A stretch of 64,000 nucleotides of DNA from Saksenaea vasiformis B4078 (lineage: Eukaryota > Mucoromycota > Mucoromycetes > Mucorales > Saksenaeaceae). The notes below the pieces were generated by a model that was given only the letters and a program-made list of their open reading frames with translations, searched no databases and was not told the origin of the DNA. Location: the NCBI GenBank assembly GCA_000697055.1, contig JNDT01002282.1:161262-225261 (forward strand), in the 5' to 3' direction. The translations under genes were made by a program, and so were the position numbers. Below are positions 1,712 to 18,107 of this stretch, piece after piece (within the stretch, counting starts at the first letter, position 1; the number at the start of each line of letters is the position of its first letter).

Positions 1712-4687
1712 GGTGAATGAGGACAAAAAAGAGAAAAAGGCGAAATGGAAGACGGAAAGGTAAGGAATCAAGAGATGGGGACGAAAGAAAGTAGAAAGAG
1801 AAAACTGTCAAAAAGAAAAGAAAGAAAGTACTTAGGTTTTCTTTTCTCGCATGAAAATAAATAAATAAAAAAGAAGGCAAAAAAAAAAAGAGAGTAGAAG
1901 AGGTAGGAGAAGGTAAAACCGAAAGGGTTACTGCAATAAAAAGAAAAAGAGTGAGGGAACAAGTGCACAGAAGATATATGCCTATAGAAAAAAGCCACCG
2001 TTTTGTACGACGCATGACCAAAAGAGAAAAAAATGACATTTGCAACTGGACAGATCATATGAACAAGTATAGTTAAGTAAAAAAGAAGTTATTGTATAAG
2101 TATGGTTGTCTAAGCAACATAAAAGTACATAGTAACCATGGTATCAACTGATCAAAAAGTCAAAATACAAAAAAAAATGACAGGACACTATCTACTGCGC
2201 TTTGACCATCTGAGCAAATCTGACCCAATCACTTCCATCAAATGATATAGTAAAAATAAGCCCATTTTTTTTATAAACCTATTATTACTTCTTCTTCTTT
2301 GTTTTTCTTATTCTCTTTCCCGATTTTACTTTAAATTCCTCTTCTTTCATTTTTTCAATAGGCTAAAAAAGAAAGGGTTCTATTTTGTTGAGACATGCCA
2401 AATAAGCCTTCGGTTTATGTCGCACGGTAAATATTCAGGTGAGTTTACTTGTCCGATGCCAAATTTAGGTTGGCGTACAATTTACTGTTTCACTGAGCCC
2501 CTCTTTCCCAAACGTTTTTCTTTTTTGTGTTTAATGGGAAGATCAGTGAGAAAAATAAAAAAACGGCTGATTGTCATGTACATCTCTTTTTTTTTTCCCA
2601 CATGATCGGATACACTCTATTTTATCGGGGCTTCTTGTGGAAAAACACTATTCTTTCGTTTCTTTATTTGGATAAAAGAAACGTGGTAGTTGAAAACTGG
2701 TGGGAATGGAGGACAAGAAAAAAAAATGTCAGAATCTTCTTCACATGTTTAAGAACCCTGTTCGAACCGGACTTTTTTCGATTTAACCGGACTATACTAT
2801 CAGTGATTGTACAACTGAGGCATTTTCCATCTCTAGACACAGAAAATGAAAACACAGACAAACGAGAGAGAGACAGACAGAAAGAGATTAGTAAAAAAGG
2901 AAGATAAACTAATATAAGTAAAAGGAAGTCCGCATAGAAAACGAGGTAATGCATTCTCATCATGCAACTATATTACAATGCGTCTTTCAATGAAAACAAC
3001 TTCCTTCTTCGGTACCAAGGCAACTGTAATGCCGACTTTTAACCATAATAAAATAAACCGCGCAACATGGATCAACAGTAGTAATACATGTTCCTTCTGC
3101 TAATTTACCCCATCCTTTGTGTGGTGTGACTCGTTGGGACTTATCATAATGGCTTAATCATCAATCCATAAAAGTAAGCATGCAGTTTGAAACGCGTTTC
3201 AGTAATAGATGACGTGATACGCAGATCCTTACGAAATGACGTGGACTGATCATCCACGAATTGACACCCGCCCTTCTTACGGTCTATCCGTCACATGTCA
3301 CTGACATTATCCGTTTCTTTAATCCACGCTAAAGTGCGTGACAAAAAAGGGTCCATATGCATCGTGGTCTAAAGTGGGGCATAGAACCCTACTTCTCTAG
3401 TTTACCAAGTAGAATAACTCGAGAGAAAGCATATCATCTTCTATAAAGAAAGGAGATCGGAGTTCTCCGTGATTTTTGAAAGTGCTGTCATCATCGCATA
3501 AAAAATACGTCAACATACCTTTGGAAATCAGTCCTTACTAAACTCTTCCAATGCCAAACGCGAGGCCTAGCACCTTAGAATGAGTGCGAATTGTCCGCTG
3601 TTGCTGTTATGGATGACCTAACGCTGCGGGTCTCGGTTGCAATCAATTGTCGTAACTCAGGATAGTGAGAAGTTTTTTTTGAACTACGATGTAGTCCGGA
3701 CGGCGGAGCAATTTCGTTCTATGAATACGCAATGTTAGTCGTTGTGATCTTGCAGAAATCAGTGACTTGCTTGTGATGTGGGTGTAACGAATTGCTGTCT
3801 GTCATGGTCACAGCTAGAAAATACTTTAGAAGCGGCGTACTTGTCTATCAGGATAACCAGCGTCTTCTACGTAAGCGCTCTGCGAAATTAGTAACATTTA
3901 CTGGCAAGAGTTCAAGAACTCTCAAGGTGGCCCTTACAGATCAGCATCACCATAAGCTATAACAGTAGGTTGTGGATGATGTATATGTTCTCCTGACTGT
4001 CAGTGGGCGGCGCCTCCTTGAAGGCGTCGCCGACTTGCAGTGCGGTTCAATGATGATATCCTATCTAAACCATAGATATTAGCTTTACAACTAGAGAGAT
4101 ATCATCACATACGTCATGAGGTGGACTCTGCCAACAAGCACTCCGTCGTGCAGAGTATAACAGCATCGGATTTTCCCTGTGGCAATTAAGACCGTGTAAC
4201 CTGATGATCGTGTAAGTATAGCTTGCTATAATCAAGTATCTGATCCACTTACAGTGCATGAATATCATTGCTTAGCATTACGATGTATATCCGGGACTCT
4301 ACCACGCTAACTATCGGTTGGAGCGTTTTGGCGGTTTCTAAATGTGCAACCCCTTTTGGGTTTTACTCATTTTTTGGGTTGCATTTCCAGGCCTTTGAAG
4401 AACATCCCAAAGAATGATAATAATAATGACAACCATGTTTCTTCATTTGTAGTTCAGAATGCGGCTGATTCCTTGTAATATTCATTGTGTTATTGGGCTG
4501 TTTACTGTGTTGCTGTACGCTGAATGACGCCACTGTCCCCATTTTTGGAACACCGAAAAGACTGACATATGGGCGCGCCAGCGTTTGGGGATTATCGCTT
4601 TTGAGATGTATATATAAAAAAAGGGGGGGGGGAAAGAAGCAGTGGTATATCCCGTTATTCGTTGTTGTTTTAACTTCTTTCTCTGGC
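1712..4687. other. Gene-poor AT-rich region
   Basis: About 3 kb between two oppositely oriented genes. Open frames at 1578-2058 and 2417-2963 are poly-pyrimidine or AG-rich low-complexity sequence without domain patterns. The part around 3000-4300 has mixed composition but every frame is interrupted. It probably contains the promoters of the homeobox and PAQR genes and possibly old element remains. I see no RNA gene. Confidence 0.5.
4609..4617 (+). promoter_or_regulatory. TATA box upstream of the PAQR gene
   Basis: TATATATAA lies 71 bp before the first in-frame ATG at 4688 and 92 bp before the second at 4709. It is followed by a G-rich run. The distance fits a TATA-driven start around 4640-4650, which argues that the longer in-frame open sequence reaching back to 4487 is untranslated. 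Confidence 0.45.
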
Positions 4688-6031
4688 ATGGTCATTCAGC
4701 AACGCAATATGAAATCAAATGCTTCCATTGACGATCTTGTCCTGAACGATTCATGGCATCATGTCGCCTCATACGAAACAGAAGATACAGCAGCGCTCTT
4801 AGATAAACAACAACATAGAAGAACAATTCATTGGAACGAATTGCCTTCATGGATGCAAGATAACGTCTTTATTACTGCTGGTTATCGTCCACCAATGCCA
4901 GATTATACGAAATGCTTTAAATCCTTATTTTATCTTCATAACGAATGGGGTCCGTGCACACTATCTATCCATCTGTTCAATATTTTAACGTTTTGTCTAG
5001 TTAATATATGGAGTCATTTATTGGCTTTCATCGGTTTTCTGGGTCTTGGCCTCCATTTTTTATGGAGCCAACCTTTCGCAGATAGTCTTACCAAATTCGA
5101 CTACGCCTACTTTTTTGTATTTATCGGTGGAGCCTTAGTATGCTTAGGATTCAGCAGCAGTTTCCACTGTCTGGCATGTCATTCGGAACCGGTCGCCGCT
5201 GCATGGAATCGTTGCGACTATGTTGGTATCACAACCCTGATTGTGTAAGTTAAATCACAGCCCCAGACTCCGTTCCTGACATCTTCCATAGTGGATCTTA
5301 CTACCCTGTGATTTATTATGGTTTTCATTGCCATCCAGTCCTTCAAAGTACAAAAAAAGAAAAAGAACCATGGTAGGACCGCGATGTCTCACAAAAACTT
5401 TTCTTAGCTGTCTACTTGACCATGGTATCCGTTTTGGGCATCATTACGGTATAAACTTATTCGGCCTTTCTTGTTTTGGACTGACAGGCTTGCTAGGCTG
5501 TTGTGACCCTTCATAAACATTTCCGTACGCCTGCTTATCGATGGATGCGTACGACTCTTTTCCTCGCACAAGGCCTTTTTGGACTTATCCCTACCCTCCA
5601 TGGTATCTGGATCTATGGTGTACGTACATCCGAGGAAAGAAATGAAGGAAAACTGATATGGATCCATGTAGTTCCTCCGATCGCTGGATACCATCTCGTT
5701 GGGCAACATGATAATAATGGGTGCAAGTTATGTCGTTGGCGCATTGATCTATGGATACAGGTAAATATCCTTTCTGCTTCCTTGCTTTTTTTTCCTAATC
5801 CATTCCTTTAGAATACCGGAACGATGGTATCCCGGCTCCTTCAATATTTGGGTAAGAAAAACTACATGGCACTCAAATGGGATGATGCTTATTGTTCATA
5901 CGTAGTTCTCTTCGCATCAGATCTTTCACATTTTCGTAGTCATTGCTTTGATCTCCCATTACGTGGGTGTAATGAAAGCTATGGCATTCTGGCATGATAA
6001 AAATAATGCTGTATGCAATAGCTTCGTGTAA
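4688..6031 (+). CDS. PAQR (adiponectin receptor/Izh) family membrane protein
   Basis: Seven exons (4688-5244, 5292-5347, 5408-5448, 5497-5619, 5672-5760, 5812-5851, 5906-6031) keep one frame and give 343 residues, or 336 from the ATG at 4709. After a hydrophilic N-terminus come the family marks: a block beginning HNEWGP, then FHCLACHSEPVAAAWNR-DY, and near the end SSHQIFHIFVVIALISHY. Seven hydrophobic segments are expected. The conserved Ser, His and Asp residues form the zinc-binding site in solved family members (established knowledge). Yeast Izh proteins affect zinc and lipid homeostasis and vertebrate relatives bind adiponectin; ceramidase-like activity is discussed for the family. Substrate cannot be told from sequence. 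The stop lies 57 bp from the convergent mS26 gene. Confidence 0.88.
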
Positions 6032-6829: not shown

Positions 6830-7517
6830 GGTGTGTGGTGCCAGTCAAGGTGATCTCTTTTTCTTTTCACAGGCCCATAAACATGAGACTGGGTTTCGCT
6901 ACACGCACCCCATTGGCGCATCCATCAAATGACGTCAATAAAAATCAACCAATCAAGTAATCTCCGTACCTCACAGGTGCCCGCAGCACTGCCTCCATTC
7001 CACAAGAGGACAAAACCCGGGCCTAACAAAGAGGCTGGATGGCAGCTCTCTAACCGCCTTACCACTTGATAAGTGGACAAATAAAAACACCTTAACCAGG
7101 ACTTCGATTGCCATATACCGGTGACCATCGCTGTGAACTACAATGTGTTCCTGCAGATGCAATCACCCAAGACTATACAAATCAAATAAATATTTGTTGA
7201 ACATGATGGTAAAACTTACCAAAGGAGAACCGGTTAAGGCAAACCGCTGCGGAGACTCGCACCTAACAATGGGGTCACATCTTAGTAGAACATCTCCGCA
7301 GCGGTGCAAAAGGAGTCTAAAGAGATAGCTGTAGTTAAATCGTTCATTGACATAAGAAGATATACTTTCCTTGTAAGTTACCAGCATTGCGGTCACCGTT
7401 CAACGCGGGATGAAATCATAACTGATAATGCGTAAGAAGAGGAAGATAAATACATGCGTTTCTTGTCGAAGAAAATAAAAGATTGTCTTACTTGGAAAAG
7501 GAGCTTAAACGGTTTGA
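6830..7517. other. Intergenic region with an inverted repeat
   Basis: This includes the mS26 promoter side and repeat-like DNA. Short open frames in both strands show no domain. The only clear structure is the 13-bp inverted repeat listed at 7243-7305. Confidence 0.4.
7243..7305. repeat. Perfect 13-bp inverted repeat, 37-bp spacer
   Basis: ACCGCTGCGGAGA at 7243-7255 is exactly reverse-complemented at 7293-7305. The GC-rich arms stand out in AT-rich surroundings. It could form a hairpin or mark a small mobile element, but no target duplication was recognised. Confidence 0.6.
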
Positions 7518-8266
7518 TTATACATCACTTGATATCATTTCCAATTGAGAGGTATCTGCACCAGGAGAGTGTTCTCTTGCGATTGTATGCGTATAAATGA
7601 AGGTTAGAAATTATCCAAAACACAGCGCACTTACCGATAACATGTTTGGTTGAAGACAAGAAACAGGGGTTGAATTTTCCCAATCTGATGAGAAAAATTG
7701 TTGGAGGCAGTCCAAGACACGTTGATCCATCCAAGACATCTTTCACATTCTGACACTCACAGTTCCCACACAGCTTTTTGTCTACATCGACTGCTGGTAA
7801 GAATGAGATAAATGAGATGCAACACGTAGACTACTCACATTCTTACTACAGTTAACGAAGTTGATGCTGAACGTTTGCGTGCAACAACCGAACTGAAAGA
7901 CATATTATGTGTAAAAAAATAACCACCGGATGGGAAGGTACCCTGATCCAAAATGAGACAGTTTTCGACATCACAAGCCGGTGTCTTATCACAATCAGGT
8001 TGATAACGCGCTTTTAACGAACACTGAGATTACATGACGTAAAAAGCGTATGAAATCGCAACTATCAGGTTCATCAGGATACACTGATGTGTGAAGAACT
8101 GATGCATAACACCGGGATAGTTCAGTACATCTTTGTGTGACACGTGAATCTGGAGGTTGAAGGACAGCTCTGCTGTTAAACGGTTCCCACGTCTCTGAAA
8201 CAGTACTCTGCCGTTACGTATTACAGGACATGTAAAGCGACAGCAAACATATACAGCTGCAGACAA
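7518..8266 (-). pseudogene. USP-like (ubiquitin hydrolase) fragment, probably decayed
   Basis: On the minus strand a segment around 7640-7790 reads KKLCGNCECQNVKDV followed by GLPPTIFLIRLGKFN. This resembles the zinc-finger CxxC and the LPP-x-L-x-x-x-LKRF box of ubiquitin-specific peptidases. A strong GTAAGTG donor follows at about 7633. Upstream open pieces (7870-8000 with several Cys, and 8030-8266) look coding but do not join in frame through the splice sites I can see. No catalytic Cys or His box was found. I therefore call it a remnant or badly resolved gene. An unrelated CxxC protein remains possible. Confidence 0.3.
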
Positions 8267-8269
8267 TAA

Positions 8270-8546
8270 CGCAAGATTGCTTTAGTCAAATGTATGGGTA
8301 CCCATTTTCGACAGCTGAGAGTTGAAGAGGAGGCAATCAAGAAATGTTTGCTATAGCCAGGCAACATTGCCGCTTATCGAAGCATGTGATACAGCACTGA
8401 TCAGAAATCGAAAGGGAAGCAAAACAGTAAAATTTAACATTGTAAAGCAAATAAAATTGTCCAGCAAAAGAAAAAGAAGCTATCGCTAAAATTTAACAAA
8501 GAAAAAGGAAGTTGTGCAGCAAAAAAAAATAAAATAAAATCTATCG
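8270..8546 (-). other. 3' flank of the Fanzor gene, candidate guide-RNA region
   Basis: This stretch directly follows the stop codon. It is A-rich on the plus strand and holds no open frame. In characterised Fanzor and TnpB loci the guide RNA overlaps or follows the 3' end of the gene (established knowledge), so this is where it would be expected. I see no feature that proves it. Confidence 0.2.
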
Positions 8547-11500
8547 CTATTGTTGTGCATTTGGTCGTTGAAGCGACAGAGGCCGGGACTCCAGCCTCAT
8601 GTCGTTCTCCATGTACTGCACTAGGATCCTTCGCATGTTTCGCGATGCATTCACATCGCGACCCCAGTACTAAAAGAGCAAAATGTGAAGTCCATGAAAC
8701 CTCCCAAAAAAATACGTACGGTCAGTTGACCTGGCGCATCTCCTTCGTGCTCTCCATCGCACACCTTCACGGGATACACCGTCGTTGAATAATGCGGTGG
8801 AACTATAGTATTACCATTTTACAGGGTATTTCCGAATATGGTCATGCTTACCTCTGAGTTGCCTCTCTCCGCATTGCGAGCTACGGTGCAAGGCTCGCTG
8901 ATCATTGCCCAAGCAATATCTGCGTCGATGTCTGTCGCCACGTAGGCGAAGCACCTTTGTACTGTAAAAATACAATCAGCACAAGTACAGCTCCAGACTA
9001 TAACTTGGTACCGATGATTGCAAGACCCTGTGGGGATTTGAAGTTGCTCTGTTTGCTCATCGCAGCTGGAGCAAATCTTGCTTGTATTATACTCGTCAAC
9101 GAGTATAACTAGCGCTTCCTGGGCTAACGCATTGCGAAATTTCTTTGATTTTTTCATATATGAGAAGCTGCTGGTTGCGATGATAGAAAGATACAGACCT
9201 TCACAGGGACAGGAGCATGACCTTTCATTCCTGGCTTTAGATCCGCGTCACCATGAGAGATAATCACAGGAAGTTCGTCTCTTTCCATAATATCTCTTTT
9301 TCGTTTCCAGCTGGAGGCAGATGTTTTAAAAACCGGCTCATTATACCTCTGTTGACGAATTTAGCACGTGAAATAGCTCTACAGACTTACATTAGGAATA
9401 ATGTTACGAACAAGTTTGTTCGTTAGTCCGGATAGAGTCGAAGCTCTTGCTCTGCTCATTGTGAGTAGTCGCTCACGGTGTTCATAAGACGCGTTAAATT
9501 GCTGCAGTCTTGTAAAACCTGTTAACGATAACATACAGCATCTCCAGTTAGGATTTACCTGGTACGAACGGCACTAAACGTTCCTACATATCTTTGAAAT
9601 TCCACCATGCTAAATACCTTCGCGGAGTGGTCGTTTAGAAATGCATAAAATGGCTCAATTCCTGACGATCTACGGGCCGCAAGTTCATTCTGGCATCCCC
9701 ATGTAAATAGCGACAGTTTCCTGTGATGTTTTAGAAATTCACGACCAAACACAACAATTTACTCACTGATACAGCCTGTTAGTAATAGAAGAACAATGTT
9801 GGTGCCGGAATTCCGCGTCTCTCAGAGGAGCGTTCGTATCAACCGCCGTATACATTGAGCGTATGCCTGGATCCTATGTCAGCAAATGTACGTACTTCTA
9901 TCAATTGCAATGTATGGTACCTGGATCTAGGCCGATAATCTTGGATGTGTTGAGCCTTTCCTGAGACAGACCTCTGGGGCGCTTATTGAGGAGATATATA
10001 CCTCTTTCCCAGTTGCTGAGATCTGCATCTCGTCGCAGCAATCGGAAGTCTCGTTGCGACGAGGGAGTGCTATCTGGATTGGGCATGTCAGTATATATTC
10101 AAACAATTGATGTACTTCACATACATATGCGACGCCTATCAAACTGAACATCTGCAACTACTCCATTTGTTTGAAAGAAGTAGGCCAACTCGTATCGCGA
10201 TCGCGTCGCATCTTGGGCAGCTACCAGATATTTGAATGTCTCGAAAATTACAGCTCTGTGTTACCATCTGCTTGCCATCTCCATCTGTTTTTTTGGCATC
10301 TATCGATGTCAAAAACGGCTTCCCATAATCTTTCTCGTGAAGTTGGTTCGCGCATTTGGCGCTCGAACTCGCCGAGTGATATCAGTTCCACAGTTCCTCC
10401 TTGCGTCTAAAATATGCTAATTAATCACCACCCGAGCGCGCATAAGAACATATACCAGGTGATCGGGAAGAACTTCAGTCGTAGATACCGATTTGAAGAC
10501 GTAATACAGTACCCTCGCGTCCACACTGATATGAACAATTCTATGATCAGCTATCGGTAAAAGTGACCAACGCTTTCCGTTGTAGAGTTCTGTGTAAGGA
10601 TAGAGCTTGTGCAGATAGGCCACAATCCTCGGAAACAGGTTCCAATTTTCTGGCTCCTCAGGGTCTAGCTGCTCAACGACAATGCCTTCCAAGTGTTCCC
10701 TGTAAAGTTCCTGCTGAGTTCTATAACATACGTTACACATCGATTCGCTTCAAAAGCAAGAGCGTACCGCAAAAATCTCAACAATTCTTGCCGGAAAGGC
10801 ATATTCAACCAAAGATCGTTACGTATGGCTGCGCGACCCTGAATCAGACTAATCGCCTGTTTTGCTGTTGACATTTGACAAGAGTCAGATTCAATGTGAC
10901 AGTAAATGATCAGAGATTTTACCGTACGATTTTGGCCCTCCCCCTGGTAGTGGTTGGCCATGTCGCTCTTTCAGCTGTTTGAAGTACGCATGATATACAT
11001 AAAGCATATATGTTTCCACGTTTCCGAGCAAATGATGTCGTATATCTTGCGATTGTTTAGCAACAACAAAAAGACATACTGACGTCGCTACTTTCACTTA
11101 CTTTGCATGATCTGCGCAGGAAAATAATACATAATAGCTACTATAGCCTTTTCGTAACGTGGGATGTCATAAACATCTGCAAATGTCAGTCGTCAGTGAT
11201 GAGTAGGATATGTAATAGCGATACGTACATTGCCCATGCTGATTTTTTCGTAAAAAGTCATAGTAAACCTCGTAGGTGGTTTGTAGTGCCATGCGCCAGG
11301 GTTCCTTAAGCAAGAGATTGAATGAACTTATCGTCACGACCGTAAACCCTACTGCATGTGTCGCTTGCGTTCGACCGCCTACCAAGTTACACGCCATCCT
11401 CCAGAATTTTGCATCCATAATGGGTGGAAACGAGAATTCATCATTATCGTCACCGTGCTGCTCCGTCCACCTCCGGACGTGTAAGTTCGCAAGGTTTATA

Positions 11501-11749
11501 GCATCGGCTCTCAACGTTGTACACTGCTCCGCTAACGAGCGAAAACTCACCTAAGTCAAAGCATCATAAGTAGTGCAGTTGTTTGTAGCTTTCGACGCTC
11601 ACGCGCAGATACGAATATTCTTCCCGCAGAAAATTCTCCAACTTAAGCTGTCTGGTAACACGAAACTGTCTGTCGCCTTCGCGGGGAAGGATCGAGTGGC
11701 GATGTCGCGTTCTTCCCCTTTGTACAGGGAGCTCTTCGTTGTCAGACAT
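8547..11749 (-). CDS. Fanzor/TnpB-like RNA-guided nuclease homologue, 17 exons
   Basis: Seventeen exons join in one frame to 798 residues: 11603-11749, 11229-11550, 11102-11176, 10923-11045, 10768-10864, 10456-10720, 10265-10406, 10125-10220, 9921-10073, 9767-9866, 9559-9720, 9391-9508, 9199-9348, 9012-9142, 8852-8961, 8720-8802, 8547-8669. The C-terminal half has family marks in order: RuvC-I-like IIGLDPGIRSMYTAV near residue 473, a VIISHGDADLKPG segment near 625, VDEYNTSKICSSC at about 665-677 (first half of the zinc finger), and YWGRDVNASRN at about 759-769 (RuvC-III Asp). TnpB/Fanzor proteins are transposon-linked nucleases guided by an RNA made next to the gene. The long N-terminal half fits Fanzor1-type eukaryotic copies. 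The second Cys pair is weak: around 700-755 only single cysteines are seen, so exons 15-16 are the least certain. Other exon choices near there are possible. Confidence 0.78.
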
Positions 11750-12088
11750 AATGGAGCAACTAAAAAAATGAAAAGAGCAAGGAAACAAATTTTCTGGTAT
11801 TCAGACTTGTAAAAGCAGTGCTACCTATTTTGACAACAAAAGAGGAGGTTTGGAACTATTCAGAGTCTCGATTTGACATGTGCGATTTCGTATAAAGCTG
11901 CTCTCTATACTTTTTGCGGATGATCTGGCGACGAGCTTATGTTAAAACCTTTCTTCAAGTCCGGCGAGATATTCTGATATTAATGAGGAGTTGCACATGG
12001 TCATTGTGTCCAGGTTTCAGGTCTACACCACCGCAAGCAATGGGAACGGTAAAAATTTTCTCTAATATTATCGGTCTTTCTTATGGGG

Positions 12089-12162
12089 ATTACTGGAATG
12101 TCACAACTCCCAGTAATTTTGCGTAGTACGCAGTATTATCCAGTGATCATTACTGGATAATA
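12089..12162. repeat. Two adjacent imperfect palindromes with an ACTGG core
   Basis: ATTACTGG at 12089-12096 is mirrored by CCAGTAAT at 12110-12117. Next to it TATTATCCAGT at 12134-12144 is mirrored by ACTGGATAATA at 12152-12162. All four share the ACTGG core. They lie about 340 bp upstream of the Fanzor start and could be element termini or a protein-binding site. Confidence 0.55.
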
Positions 12163-12683
12163 TATGGAAATGCAGGTAAATAATAAGGTCATTTCCGTCA
12201 TGACGTTGAACAGACGAGTGATTTTAGTTTACGTTACCAAACGAAGCGGTTACTGCTATAGAATGATTTGCAGATGGTTACTGATGGATAGAAATTGAAA
12301 CAATGGGGATGCTCAGCAAGCGAAATTTGAAAAAAGGATTATATTATTAAAATGAGTGTTGTACTGTTTAAATGACTCATGGTGCTTGCGGGTAATAGAG
12401 GGATAGAGGAGTCTCGAGTTATCCTTATATGACTCTTTACTAGATCCGGATCATTATGCTTATCCTGCTTAACGCATTCTGCGTTCGCTCGCATCTCGGC
12501 AACAGTCGGATGAGATAAAATGTGTCTATAACCGTGTTCTAATAAAGTAACCACCTCCAGTACCTTTTGCCGTGTTCAGATGTATTGTTCTAATCACTAT
12601 GTAATAATGTAACTATGTCGGATATGACACCAGGATTGTTCCAGACTAAGTCCATAGCAGATGTGCAATTCAGGGATGATATG

Positions 12684-12779
12684 CATAGCTTTTATTGGAT
12701 GGTAAGGAGGGTACTCATAGTTTTTATTGGGCGGTAGGGACGATACTCATAGCTTTTGTTGGATAGCAAAAGTGATATT
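12684..12779. repeat. Tandem repeat, three 32-bp units
   Basis: Units start with CATAGCTTTTATTGGATGG, CATAGTTTTTATTGGGCGG and CATAGCTTTTGTTGGATAG at 12684, 12716 and 12748. Only a few bases differ between units. A minisatellite with no coding sense. Confidence 0.75.
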
Positions 12780-13080
12780 TATCATTTTATTCGCCTTCTT
12801 GCGGAAATGTCACCATCAGAAGGTAGGCTTTCTTTCTTAGATCTTTACACTCTGCATCAGAAAACAATGTGGGAACTACTGCATACTTACCGATAAAAGA
12901 CAAAATAAAAACATGAAAGGCAGAAAGAAAGAGAGAAGTGACAACAAATGGAATAAAAAGAAAATCCTTTAACACGTCACCTCCCTGATCTTTCATTATC
13001 ATACCTGCTGCCATACACAATACATACAAAAATCGCACATCCACGTTCCTTGTCAGATAAGCTACGTCACTAAATCGACT

Positions 13081-13700
13081 TTCTTAGGTACCATAGGCGT
13101 TACACAATCATGAACTATTGTAGACCGCAATTTTCCTTGCAAGCTATGACAGTATTCCCGTCTTATGTATTATAACAATTGCTCTCTCCAGGTATTAATT
13201 GAACTATTTTAGCAAAATTAAAGTATGGGATAAGGTTTAGGTAGCTTCTAAAGTGATCTGCTCTGCGCAACACCTACGGTCCTTAACAGCTCTGTCGCTA
13301 AAGTCTTAAACTACGTCATTTTTGAGGTGTGGGGTGCGCCAGTGGGATGCCTGTAGCCAAACTCCCTGATTACAGTGCTCTTAGGGACCATAGGTGTTAC
13401 GCAACCGTGCAGTACTCCAAAGCTCTTACGAGCAACAGCTGTATCTCCGTATCATAACAAGCGTTCTAGCCAGACGTTAACACAGAGTGACTTAGTAAAA
13501 CTAAGGTCTATGGTAGCTTCTAAGGTCACCTGCTCTGTACAACACTTTGACCCCTAAGAACTCTGATGCTATAAACACCGAGGGTTTCAACGCGATGGAC
13601 TGTGATAGTCAGATTTCTTAGGAGCCATAGCTTGCACAGCCACAAACCCCCACCGAGACTATCCTAAAACCCGCTGATTTCTGAGCCGAGAAATCCGGTA
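13081..13700. repeat. Degenerate tandem repeat of about 300 bp
   Basis: The segment starting CTTAGGTACCATAGGCGTT at about 13084 recurs as CTTAGGGACCATAGGTGTT at about 13380 and again, weaker, as CTTAGGAGCCATAGC near 13618. Inner blocks such as GGTAGCTTCTAA-GT-A-CTGCTCTG also repeat in order. This is an old tandem duplication of unknown origin. Confidence 0.6.
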
Positions 13701-13974
13701 TGGCTCCTAAGAAAGGCGTGACAATTAGAGCGAGAAAATGTATCGGCCCATTTGCTTTTGCAATGGGATGTGTCCTCAATGTACAAGCTTTCGGCGATTA
13801 TAGGATGCTCACAAAACAGGTATCTTTCAAAAAGCTCTTGCTACGACATCGCTGGACGTTGACTAGAGACAATGTTACTGTAAAAGCTGGTGCATAATGC
13901 ACAGTAAATGCTCTTTAGGTTCCATTTATTATGCAGTATTGTCATCATCTACTTGTCGCTATCCGTACCGTTTC

Positions 13975-16900
13975 TCATAACGCCTCCATTTTTTGTTTTT
14001 GAGCAATGCAAAGATGCAACATTGCAGACGTATGACCTTGGACCACCGCCTTTTGGTACCAATGAATTGCTGCATTGCAGTTAATTTCCACAGCGTGTCC
14101 ATCACGATACATATTCCCGAGTTGATATTGTGCTTCTGCATTGCCTTGCTCGCCAGCTTTTTCATACCATTTAAAAGCCTCGACATCGTCTTTAACAACA
14201 CCGTATCCATTCATGTACATATCTCCAAGCCTGACTTGCGCTATTGGAATACCTTCTGCAGCCGCTTGGTGGTATAATTCAAAGGCCTCTGTTGCATTTT
14301 CGCTCATAGCATGCCCACTAGAGATCATATCTCTCAGACGCTGCTGTGCGTTGGCATTTCCTTGTTCGGCCGCCTTTCTGTACCATTTAACAGCCTTGAA
14401 TTCATCTTTATCCACACCTCTCCCGTTCCTGTACATGTTTCCAACTTTGGTCTGCGCATAGGCGTTGCCCTGGTCAGCCGCTTTAACATACCATCCAAAA
14501 GCCACAACGTAATCTTGAGTTACACAGGCGCCACTCTTAAACATATCTCCAAGCAGGATTTGCAGGACCACATTTCCCTGATGAGCTAACTCTTCCCACT
14601 GCTTTAACATGCTGTCATGGTCTTTATCCACAGGTTTTCTCCCTCTGGATATGCTTTCAATTCGTCGTAGTGCCGTTTCATTCCCCTTGTCAGCTGCCAT
14701 TTTGTACCATTTGATTGCTTTGGAAAAACTTTGCCCAATACATTTTCCGTTTCTGTACATATCACCGATCCTGATTTGCATATACTGACTCCCACATTCG
14801 GCCGCTTTCTTGTACCATTGAGTGGCCGTGATATCATCTTGATCGACACCCGTTCCATCTCTGTACATGTCGCCGAGTTCAATATGCGCATGCTCGTTTC
14901 CCTGATCTGCCGCCTTTTTGTACCATTCGATGGCTTGGGACATGTCTTTTTCCGTACCATCTCCAGCACAACACATATCACCTAATTCCTTTTGTGCATA
15001 GCTGCTACCCTGCATGGCTGCCTTTTTGTACCATTGGAATGCTTTTATACTATCTTTTTCCACGTCTGCTCCGTATCGGTACATATCTCCTAGACGGATC
15101 GGCGCATCGCAATCGTTCTGTTCCGCTGCTTTTTCGTACCATTGAATCGCTTTGTCGATGTTTTGATCCACACGATCTCCATCTTTGTACATATCACCAA
15201 CTTTAATCTGCAGAGCTTGATTTCCATTAGAAGCTGCCTTTTCGTACCATTGGGTTGCTTTGTAGTAATCGGTTGCTACACCTTCTCCGACATAATAGAT
15301 ATCTCCAAGGGCAGTTTGCGCTTCCTGATTTCCCTGTTCGGCCGCCTTATTGTACCATTCAATGGCTTTGTCTATGTCTTGACCGTCGTAATCTTCATCC
15401 CAGTAGATCTCAGCAAGTTTAATTTGCGCTTCTTCATCCCCTTGATCGGCTGCTTTTCTGTACCACCCAATAGCTTCATCATAGTCTTGCTCTACACCAC
15501 TCCCGTCCCTATACATGTCACCGAGACTGTTTTGCGCATCGATATTGGCCCGAAGAGCAGCCTTTCTGTACCACTCGTATGCTTTGGCGTAGTTCATAGG
15601 CACATTTTCTCCGGAGTAGTACATATCGCCCAGCCGCGTTTGCGCCTCTTCGTTACCTTGATCAGCCGCTCTCATGTACCATTCCATAGCTTCACTGTCG
15701 TCCTTTTCGACACCTTGGCCCTGCGTATACATTTTTCCTAAGCTATATTGGGCTGCAGCCAAGTTCCCATTGGCTGCAAGCTTTAACCAGTTGAATGCCG
15801 CCGTATAATCCCGCGTGACACCGATGCCATCTCTGCACATGATTCCAAGTCTTTGCTGTGCATCGATATGATGCTGATGGGAGGCTTTTTCGAACCATTC
15901 GAAGGCTTTGATAGGATTTTGATCTACACATTGACCAGAGCTGTACATGCATCCAACCTGGTACTGAGCTTGGCTATGGTTGTGATTGGCTGCCTTCTGA
16001 AACCATTTGAAAGCTTCAACATTGCTTTTCACCACTCCCTCGCCGGATACATGCATCATCCCTAACTTGTACTGTGCATCGACAAGCTCTTGGTTGGCTG
16101 CTCTCTGAATCCATTGCGATGCTGCGTCATGGTCTTGGTATGTACCTCCACCGCTGTTGTACATAATACCAAGGTTGTACTGTGCTTGAGCATGATTCTT
16201 TTCGGCTGCTCTTGTGAACCAATAGAGAGCTGGCCTATAGTTTTTCTCTACACCTTCGCCATTGTAGTACATTACGCCAATGCTGTTTTCTGCATCCGCA
16301 TTATTTTGATTAGCTGCCTTTTGGAACCATTTCAATGCCCTGAAGTGGTCTTGCGATACACCGTTGCCATCTTTATACATACATCCCAGTTGATATTGAG
16401 CAGCACCGTTACCCTGATTTCCGGCTTTTAAAAACCACTGGTAGGCTTCGGAATAATCCTGTACGACCCCCTTTCCATTCATATACATTCCGCCAAGATT
16501 ATTCTGTGCGTTCGCGTCATTGTCATCGATAGCTTTTACTATCCACTCGCAAGCTTTCATGTGGTCCTGATCAACCCCAAATCCATTTGCATACATCATC
16601 CATAATCGATAGCGGCCGAACGGATCCATAGAAGGTGGGAGCATTTTGAACTTTTTTATCATTTGAACATTAGCGTGGCTTATGTGATCCACATGGTTGA
16701 CGCAAGTTTGCTCTGAAAAGTTCTTTTGGACTACATATTTGCACGTCCTCTCCACCATAGCTTTTAGCCGTTGTGGTAGTAAACAGTAAGCAGGGTTAAG
16801 CTGCTTGAGCTGAATGATCATCGGGTTTGCTTGAATCGATTCTATCCAACAGTTGACATTAGGTCGAGAGAAAGGCAAGGAGGAACGATCATAAGGATTA

Positions 16901-18107
16901 AAGAGAAGCGTTGGATCACCACCTGTCACGAAACAACGTGTTATATATTCCACATCTTTACAAACAAGAAAGTTGTATTTACCAAGGACGCTGTACTGTA
17001 GTCCTGAGCTTATAGCGTACTCAATAGCGCGCTTCAATCTATCCCCATTGTCATACGAATGTACACCAGATTCAGGAAAGCACATCTGTTCAAGCTCTAC
17101 ATTCGATTGGACTATAATCCTTCCACCTACAATGCATTGGTGAGGATAAATCTCCGTCTGCAGCATCAGCCCCTTACCGAGTACTATCTTGGAAGGGTAA
17201 AAGTAGCCATGCGATTTGAAGACCGTTTCTAGTTCTTTCGACCTCTGCTCGTCAGAACAGAACATGGCTACACGCTCGACACTGCTGCTAAACGAGGGTG
17301 TTGCCTGGATTCTTCCAGGAAGAAACTAGCGCAGTGCGTTATAGCGACAAGCGTCCTAGTTTGTAGCGTTGTTTCACTCACCTCGTAGCAGGGTGCGTAC
17401 AGCGCCAGACTCCGTGATTCGGTTGTGACGTTGTGCGCCGATTGCTGTTGTTCTTTGTATGGCTCAAGTTGAATGTGCATTGTTGGTCGAAAAGAAGAAT
17501 CGTGCATTGCATAAAGACATGCATAATTGCTTGCACCTACGCCATTCACCTGTTCTGCATATACTTCCGTTTTCCGGTGGACGCTTTTGAGGATTCCCTG
17601 TATCTCCTCTTCATCACAAGTCGATCGCTGTCCACAGCGCTCACTGCATATTTCGGCTACGGAGAAATGCGTTGGTTGCCCGTCGAGCCGGATTCCTTTG
17701 CCCCAATAATCAATTAATTCTTCCTCAATGCCCGCTCTTGGAGCACTGATAGATCGTAGTCCTCTCGAAACAATGCGCCAGGAGACATCATGGGTGTTTC
17801 TGTATCTACAGTATTGTGTAGCAGCAAGCAAAGATACACGGGCGGAGGAAAGCAACGGATTTATAACTCGCTGAGAAGTCATTTCCATGTCATATAGACG
17901 TTGGAGTGAAGCTATGCATAGGTACACAGATGTCATATGACCTGTGTCATCCATGATCTCACCCTGCAGAGCTATGTTGTCGCCTACACGAACATAACCT
18001 TCGGTTTCTCCAGATTTCTGGTCAATTAAGTCTCGCTGGATAGCTTGGTAATTTGATCTTTCTGAGCTATCGCAGGCTTGGCCGCAACGAACAACCTTCC
18101 TAATCAT
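13975..18107 (-). CDS. MACPF-like plus Sel1-repeat protein
   Basis: Two exons (17382-18107 and 13975-17304; GTGAGTG donor, TCCAG acceptor, phase 0) give 1351 residues. The N-terminal 470 or so contain a MACPF-like block: FKSHGYFYPSKIVLGKG, then VTGGDPTLLF and a segment ending near CLLPQRLKAMVERT. The remaining roughly 880 residues are about 24 Sel1-like repeats of 36 residues, each with A-x-x-x-LG-x-MY-x-x-G-x-G-V-x-x-D and A-x-x-WY-x-KAA. Sel1 repeats form an alpha solenoid for protein binding. MACPF folds can form pores or bind membranes (established knowledge), but function here is unknown and key membrane-spanning segments were not identified. The ATG lies only 52 bp after the stop of a gene with the same N-terminal domain, so the two are probably a tandem duplication. 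Confidence 0.72.
14000..16640 (-). repeat. Coding tandem array of 108-bp Sel1 units
   Basis: The large second exon carries about 24 consecutive 108-bp units, each encoding one 36-residue Sel1-like repeat. The units are diverged at the DNA level, so expansion looks old or under selection for variation. The regular period also creates long false open frames on the plus strand. Confidence 0.85.

Follow-up and report, generated by a model that had tools for sequence, protein, structure and literature searches.

An intron-rich Fanzor1-like gene and a candidate omega RNA in a Mutator-like transposon of Saksenaea vasiformis

A stretch of 64,000 nucleotides from the mucoralean fungus Saksenaea vasiformis B4078 (assembly GCA_000697055.1, contig JNDT01002282.1, positions 161,262 to 225,261 of the forward strand; the window hereafter) holds a Mutator-like transposon of about 6.5 kb with terminal inverted repeats (TIRs), and this element carries a 17-exon Fanzor-type gene together with a conserved structured RNA near its 3' end. 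Our preferred explanation, which we consider likely, is that the gene encodes a Fanzor1-like RNA-guided nuclease travelling as cargo of the TIR element, and that the end RNA would act as an omega RNA targeting the insertion site of the element itself. C and L numbers below denote contigs and loci of the genome, respectively, and positions are those of the window.

The gene lies on the minus strand, with its ATG at 11749 and its stop codon ending at 8547. Assembled by hand from three minus-strand reading frames, it comprises 17 exons and 798 stop-free codons, and its 16 introns, all GT-AG, measure 42-58 nt and have consistent phases; these numbers are identical to those of the initial annotation. 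Exons 1-14 in the following list rest on the hand assembly and on a sister copy on C580, exons 9 and 14 additionally on protein alignment, and exons 15-17 on the hand assembly and protein alignment.

8547..11749, minus strand: Fanzor-type gene, 17 exons, 798 aa (hand assembly, C580 copy, spliced alignment)
11603..11749, minus strand: exon 1
11229..11550, minus strand: exon 2
11102..11176, minus strand: exon 3
10923..11045, minus strand: exon 4
10768..10864, minus strand: exon 5
10456..10720, minus strand: exon 6
10265..10406, minus strand: exon 7, 3 nt longer in C580
10125..10220, minus strand: exon 8
9921..10073, minus strand: exon 9, whose end falls inside the RuvC-I motif GLDPG (Asp 472, codon 9927-9925)
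9767..9866, minus strand: exon 10
9559..9720, minus strand: exon 11
9391..9508, minus strand: exon 12
9199..9348, minus strand: exon 13
9012..9142, minus strand: exon 14, with RuvC-II Glu 667 (codon 9094-9092) and the first CxxC of the finger
8852..8961, minus strand: exon 15, coding for the inserted stretch of the finger with Cys 710 and Cys 724
8720..8802, minus strand: exon 16, with Cys 745
8547..8669, minus strand: exon 17, with RuvC-III GRDVNA (Asp 763, codon 8657-8655) and the C terminus
8600..8880, minus strand: recombinant patch (window 56-73% identical to C580; C580 81-87% identical to C577 and C500)

Since GT and AG are common, we tested by spliced alignment with controls whether such a gene model could be forced. 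With the family B paralog L039 (46% identical) as query, all 16 introns fell at identical sites and the alignment scored 1630 with zero frameshifts and zero stops, while the same query reached at most 94 on 40 Markov shuffles, 66 on the reversed sequence, 86 on the opposite strand and at most 85 on ten other segments of the window. A family C paralog as query placed 15 introns in total and recovered 13 of the 16 exactly. The paralog proteins had first been drafted with the window protein as guide, which leaves the spliced-alignment test not wholly independent; the comparison with C580 is independent. A one-frame read-through of introns 14 and 15 was ruled out, as C580 has 1-nt indels in both introns and none in the adjoining exons. 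At the level of sequence, the 17-exon structure of the Fanzor-type gene is thereby confirmed.

The nearest copy of the gene, C580:150062-153266, retains the frame and all 16 GT-AG splice sites. Introns 1-14 are hardly more diverged between the two copies (28 of 646 sites) than exons 1-14 (78 of 2081). Indels are distributed unevenly, with one in the 17 exons (3 nt) and seven in the 16 introns, six of which are not multiples of three. The ratio of nonsynonymous to synonymous substitution rates (dN/dS) is 0.30 over 798 codons (bootstrap 0.21-0.42) and, from block sums, about 0.38 when residues 691-798 are left out; the synonymous divergence (dS) from C580 outside this tail is about 0.07, likewise from block sums. 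Because dN/dS is 0.30 and frame-breaking indels are confined to introns, both lineages appear to have been constrained since their split, which supports purifying selection for much of that time and upholds the earlier description of a Fanzor-type gene with an open spliced frame. Constraint since the split is no proof that the window copy is active at present.

Divergence from C580 is 14-37% in exons 15-17 and 40-46% in introns 15-16, against 0-9% in the remaining exons and introns. The last exons of the window gene form a recombinant patch, the window copy being the odd one out in 8600-8880. A genome search with 8500-8890 found no closer donor than C580, at 72%. The frame of the tail (residues 691-798) is intact, and its dN/dS of 0.19 suggests that the donor line was probably functional.

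The initial annotation had taken the introns as a sign of long residence in the host; that they point to long residence at this site is not supported. In family B and C paralogs, about 45% identical to the window protein, introns stand at the same residues and in the same phases for most of the 16 positions; by this comparison the introns predate the family, were carried along in DNA transposition and do not date the insertion. Some intron gain or loss within the family is also apparent: intron 9 is absent from nine of nine family B loci that reach its position, and families B and C have extra introns (those of B seen in L039). At this intron the 7 bases GATCCAG close both exon 9 and intron 9 (9867-9927), a repeat that could be coincidental or could be left over from the gain of the intron. 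For the copies compared, retroposition was ruled out, the introns being retained. Introns in Fanzors are reportedly discussed by Jiang and others (2023); in the part examined of the literature covering Fanzor together with intron, no statement on introns of Fanzor genes was found. The Fanzor1s of Chlamydomonas Helitrons are described, in part of PMC3627910, as having five and ten exons with expressed sequence tag support.

Turning to the protein, GLDPG (Asp 472), DEYNTSKICSSC (Glu 667) and GRDVNA (Asp 763) would supply the three RuvC acidic residues, all invariant in a four-protein alignment, and both GLDPG and RDVNA are located where they had been reported. At RuvC-I, the proteins of the window and of C580 read GLDPG, family C reads GVDPG and the family B copy L039 reads GLDAG. 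Six residues lie between Glu 667 and Cys 674, the first Cys of the finger, and Fanzors are characterized by a rearranged RuvC-II glutamate six residues ahead of the zinc finger (in part of PMC10711439). With its DPG motif at RuvC-I, the rearranged Glu and its carriage by a transposon, the window protein resembles Fanzor1. The WED-domain motif is TDG, a Fanzor1 feature (PMC10711439, in part), in families B and C and in Fennellomyces, and TNG in the window and C580. In the finger region, CxxC is followed by Cys 691, His 693, Cys 710, Cys 724 and Cys 745, all of them invariant in the four proteins, and this expanded Cys/His region may bind one or two zinc ions; a change specific to the window puts CDGEH where C580 and C577 have CPHQH.

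Two published sequence patterns fail on this protein. The Bao-Jurka motif, D-X(125,275)-[TS][TS]XX-[C4 finger]-X(5,50)-RD, fits in its spacings, TS, RD and first CxxC, and the window protein departs from its C4 part, having no second CxxC. The pattern of Yoon and others, DPGx(120-160)ExxxxxxCxxCx(12-18)CxxC (given in part of PMC10711439), does not match either, with 192 residues between DPG and Glu and the second CxxC absent. Because both fail, we call the protein Fanzor1-like and do not assign it as a member of Fanzor1.

An initial protein search with the window protein returned one metagenome protein, and six 'hypothetical proteins' of the mucoralean fungus Fennellomyces were found in nr, the first by an alignment search (E 2.1e-116 over 94%) and five via the first; the initial and the alignment search were limited in scoring to about 8,000 candidates with the most shared words, and further relatives may exist. 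BJV82DRAFT_635314 of Fennellomyces sp. T-0311 shows 30% identity over 94%, is not annotated as a Fanzor and differs in having His at the place of Cys 674, while the counterparts of Cys 710, 724 and 745 are invariant in all six proteins. Two scans for viral relatives confirmed none. A stitched C-terminal piece matched Cas12m4a in PDB with E 0.0019.

The boundaries and contents of the carrying element, whose right end is uncertain by 1-2 bases, are as follows.

6891..13365, minus strand: Mutator-like element (MULE-type transposon) with the Fanzor gene, about 6.5 kb, 5' end right and 3' end left (TIRs, C441 ends)
6891..6922, plus strand: left TIR, element 3' end (end-sequence comparison)
13336..13365, minus strand: right TIR, element 5' end, imperfect; no target-site duplication in common with the left flank
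6891..7085, minus strand: predicted omega RNA scaffold to the element 3' end, about 190 nt (covariance model, analogy with SpuFz1 and SfAV)
7011..7082, minus strand: conserved three-hairpin RNA, predicted omega RNA core (covariance model, 73.0 bits)
12282..12629, no strand given: inserted dispersed repeat, 348 bp, by eye like a long terminal repeat (TG...CA); also in the C580 copy, no target duplication seen
13075..13294, no strand given: small insertion, 220 bp, probably a miniature inverted-repeat transposable element (MITE); the homologous ends of C441 and C462 do not have it

Sequence similarity with C580 and C577 sets in sharply at 6890/6891, the left end being the same in both copies, and the end sequence occurs 32 times in the genome at up to three mismatches (zero for the reversed control), one occurrence lying inverted near 13361 of the window. 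Both ends of the window element match both ends at C441 in the same order, and there (C441:254209-260344) they are accompanied by a perfect 9-bp target duplication. Repeats were also seen by eye at C626 (12 bp) and C172 (10 bp), and none at C160, C173 or C379. An element copy on another contig is 92% identical. Similarity to C580 stops at 12629, and an element confined to 6890-12629 was ruled out by the TIR near 13365 and by C441, position 12629 being the end of the dispersed repeat, which has at least 38 other places in the genome (40 of 78 candidates scored). No second gene was recognized in 6891-8546, where two minus-strand open reading frames (ORFs) gave no Pfam match.

Three further observations concern the element ends and the C441 copy. 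Short related repeats with CTTAGG.ACCATAG ends, perhaps nested MITEs, surround the right TIR (13080-13718). The same 9 bases, GATTACAGT, occur within a few bases after the window element (13365) and after the right end of L061 (C160). At C441:254150-260400 (L058, the locus with the perfect target duplication), a C-terminal Fanzor part is matched on one strand and an N-terminal part on the other.

The MULE transposase domain (PF10551) has no match on the window contig, C565, and 48 elsewhere in the genome. Five places have the domain within 8 kb of a Fanzor match, by estimate not clearly above chance. At C421, C540 and C624, however, it stands about 1.2 kb upstream of the start of a family C Fanzor on the same strand, and over the DNA that starts just past the domain and extends across the Fanzor gene the three are 87-93% identical to one another. 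The association of MULE and Fanzor is therefore claimed from equal spacing and co-copied sequence at three places, not from position alone. Only C540 contains the domain within the sequence fetched, at 27.5 bits against a cut-off of 27.6 and in a broken frame. We found no literature pairing 'Fanzor' with 'Mutator-like'.

The second component of the proposed system is a three-hairpin RNA common to three Fanzor subfamilies. It follows the stop codon in families B and C, stands near the 3' end in family A, and recurs in elements of about 1 kb that lack the gene. In the alignment, helix 2 has no unpaired cell and shows compensatory changes: one pair occurs as AU, CG, GU and GC, another as GC, AU and GU. 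Paired cells make up 82.4% of the total, 20 cells show two-sided change and the covariation score is 0.266; each of these three values exceeds those of all 500 shuffles and of all slid versions. RNAalifold alone recovers helix 2 only. When family A ends are folded to a consensus by themselves over their last 60-200 nt, the signal is weak (z between -1.1 and -3.3, with a covariation term close to zero), and the hairpins become clear only after families B and C are added.

A covariance model of this RNA, run on 45 sources totalling 269 kb, matched 29 of them strongly, at one site each, and gave one weak match besides; the training set accounts for 27 of the 29, the other two being L033 and L036, and several of the 16 sources without a match end before the element end. 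In the 64-kb window the model has a single match up to E 1. A DNA pattern allowing up to three mismatches found 44 B/C-type and 12 A-type copies in the genome and none in controls. Of these, 43 B/C-type copies start 22-97 nt after the last Fanzor exon on the same strand, and four A-type copies lie within 3 kb of one (distances taken to 48 exon matches; the copies share descent, and the counts are not independent). On these sequence features the RNA is probably a guide RNA. The RNAs of SpuFz1 (in part of PMC10432273) and of the SfAV Fanzor (in part of PMC10711439) derive from the element 3' end and run into the flank, and by analogy the scaffold here would measure about 190 nt, with a guide that would start at 6890 and run leftwards into the flank.

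Fanzor copies are numerous in this genome. Two exon probes indicate about 144 loci among the matches listed, 90 of them with two or more matches. For probe 1, 121 of 136 matches were kept (E up to about 1e-3); for probe 2, 117 rows among the matches listed (of 188), after weak and neighbouring-exon-only rows had been dropped. In 90 of the 117 probe rows the second exon lies within 1.5 kb downstream. Spliced alignment of 36 loci showed nearly the full frame, with neither stop nor frameshift, in L021 and L045, the latter lacking its first residues at a contig end; L039 is probably intact too, and the others have one or more stops or frameshifts or are cut by contig or fetch ends. The frame appears intact in at least three copies. 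High copy numbers have a precedent in CMe-1A of a red alga, with about 150 copies (PMC3627910, in part). Weak Fanzor-like matches also occur in long open frames at C419:64554-64775 (minus strand, 772 aa) and C525:135537-135767 (plus strand, 452 aa), perhaps intron-poor Fanzor families of the same genome.

Taken as a mechanism, the preferred reading would run as follows. No MULE transposase was found in the element, whose movement would occur in trans; the transcript of its gene would be spliced in vivo and translated into a 798-aa Fanzor1-like RNA-guided DNA endonuclease. A structured RNA expressed from the element 3' end (about 7085 to 6891, minus strand) would continue into host DNA, bind the protein and act as its omega RNA, the guide portion coming from the host flank. 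Cleavage by the complex would fall on DNA that matches the insertion site, either an allele without the element or the site vacated by excision, and repair templated by the filled copy would retain or duplicate the element, so that the nuclease would influence transposition and help to keep the element in place. A role of bacterial TnpB in element persistence is known.

Several results weigh against this reading. The finger start TSKICSSC, reported to be in place, is confirmed for its first CxxC half, but the second half is absent and an expanded Cys/His region stands there. The comparison with TnpB profiles that had been proposed as a check is likewise divided: the Pfam Cas12f1-like TNB domain (PF07282) matches four of four family proteins with E 2.3e-5 for the window protein, but its 24.9 bits lie just under the cut-off of 26.3, and NCBIfam guided_TnpB gives the window protein 17.3 bits against a cut-off of 100, three of the four proteins matching weakly. 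A profile search of solved structures in PDB returned nothing up to E 1, and two AlphaFold models of the homologue P0002, alone and with five relatives, have a mean predicted local distance difference test score (pLDDT) of 35.0 and 28.8; neither approach confirms the predicted RuvC fold. For the RNA, neither the number of pairs with two-sided change nor that of further pair types, among the five measures taken, rises above shuffles, the fold is only moderately better than shuffles (z -2.14), and pairing in the alignment used is 80% of cells for helix 1 and 63% for helix 3, the latter value being attributed to loop length shifting the register. At the window element, finally, no target duplication is seen.

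This lack, together with the two insertions, the replacement of the last exons by a divergent patch, and the stops or frameshifts that spliced alignment found in most full-length sister copies examined, would also suit a dead but young copy, whose frame is open from recent arrival out of an active lineage and whose gene is now idle. We lean against this account while regarding it as a serious possibility: an active source lineage may have been where most of the selection took place, dS being about 0.07 outside the tail, yet the upper bound of dN/dS is 0.42, frame-breaking indels are found in introns only, and the tail, at dN/dS 0.19, has kept its frame. An intact and constrained frame, insertions near the element end and no target duplication could instead point to a domesticated host gene, a nuclease that the host has retained at this locus for a function of its own and that has ceased to serve a transposon; the TIR ends, the end RNA and the 92%-identical copy on another contig all persist, and make domestication very improbable. 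Loss of nuclease action, leaving an RNA-guided binder or regulator, would accord with the divergent zinc-finger half and the window-specific change from CPHQH to CDGEH, but Asp 472, Glu 667 and Asp 763 are all retained and we hold it to be improbable.

The conserved RNA might also be a transposon-end or 3' untranslated region (UTR) element, such as a termination or transposase-binding motif, instead of an omega RNA. Its position near the element end fits this, as does its presence in gene-less copies, which need transposase-binding sites. Helix 2, however, is kept via compensatory changes, and the RNA remains close to the element end also in cases with the stop codon 1.5 kb off; we regard the end-element interpretation as unlikely, though it deserves some weight.

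Around the insertion, the element 3' end (6891) lies about 61 bp upstream of the start codon (6829) of an ORF on the same strand that matches mitochondrial ribosomal protein MRP-S26 in Pfam (24.2 bits, under the cut-off of 27). Given this distance and orientation, the element probably sits in the promoter or 5' UTR of the MRP-S26-like ORF. Elsewhere in the window are a broken, family B-related Fanzor fragment with stops and frameshifts (3762-4220, minus strand), an open frame with a haemolysin-III family match of 58.2 bits (4469-5248, plus strand) and a 1116-aa open frame with, by eye, many Sel1-type repeats (13975-17325, minus strand).

Fanzors are the eukaryotic RNA-guided nucleases. A single genome with many copies, gene-less copies bearing the RNA and a transposase-adjacent subfamily makes it testable whether Fanzors help Mutator elements to persist or to spread, and the conserved RNA provides a concrete guide-RNA candidate. 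Beyond the window, the case is nearly balanced for an unnamed mucoralean Fanzor branch in which transposase, intron-rich nuclease and omega RNA would be copied together as a complete RNA-guided Mutator transposon and gene-less copies, retaining TIRs and omega RNA, would use the nuclease in trans. The expanded zinc region marks a branch unmatched by the published patterns tested, and because of it the branch is likely to escape them.

Among known systems, the closest by description are the MuDr-type Fanzor elements without transposase that Bao and Jurka described in three mucoralean fungi (PMC3627910, in part), which share with the present family a TIR element, 9-bp target duplications (here seen as a perfect one at C441) and the lack of a MuDR transposase; here, one subfamily has a MULE domain upstream, and a conserved RNA is present. 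SpuFz1 of Spizellomyces is similar in its RuvC Asp-Glu-Asp residues, its 3'-end RNA and its gene-less ghost copies, and differs, as far as described in part of PMC10432273, in having a single ORF, a 2.1-kb element and a CCCC finger, where the Saksenaea element has 17 exons, other TIRs and an expanded finger. The Chlamydomonas Helitrons CRe-1/2/3 likewise carry a multi-exon Fanzor1 within a DNA transposon (PMC3627910, in part), whereas the gene described here has 17 exons and resides in a Mutator-like element.

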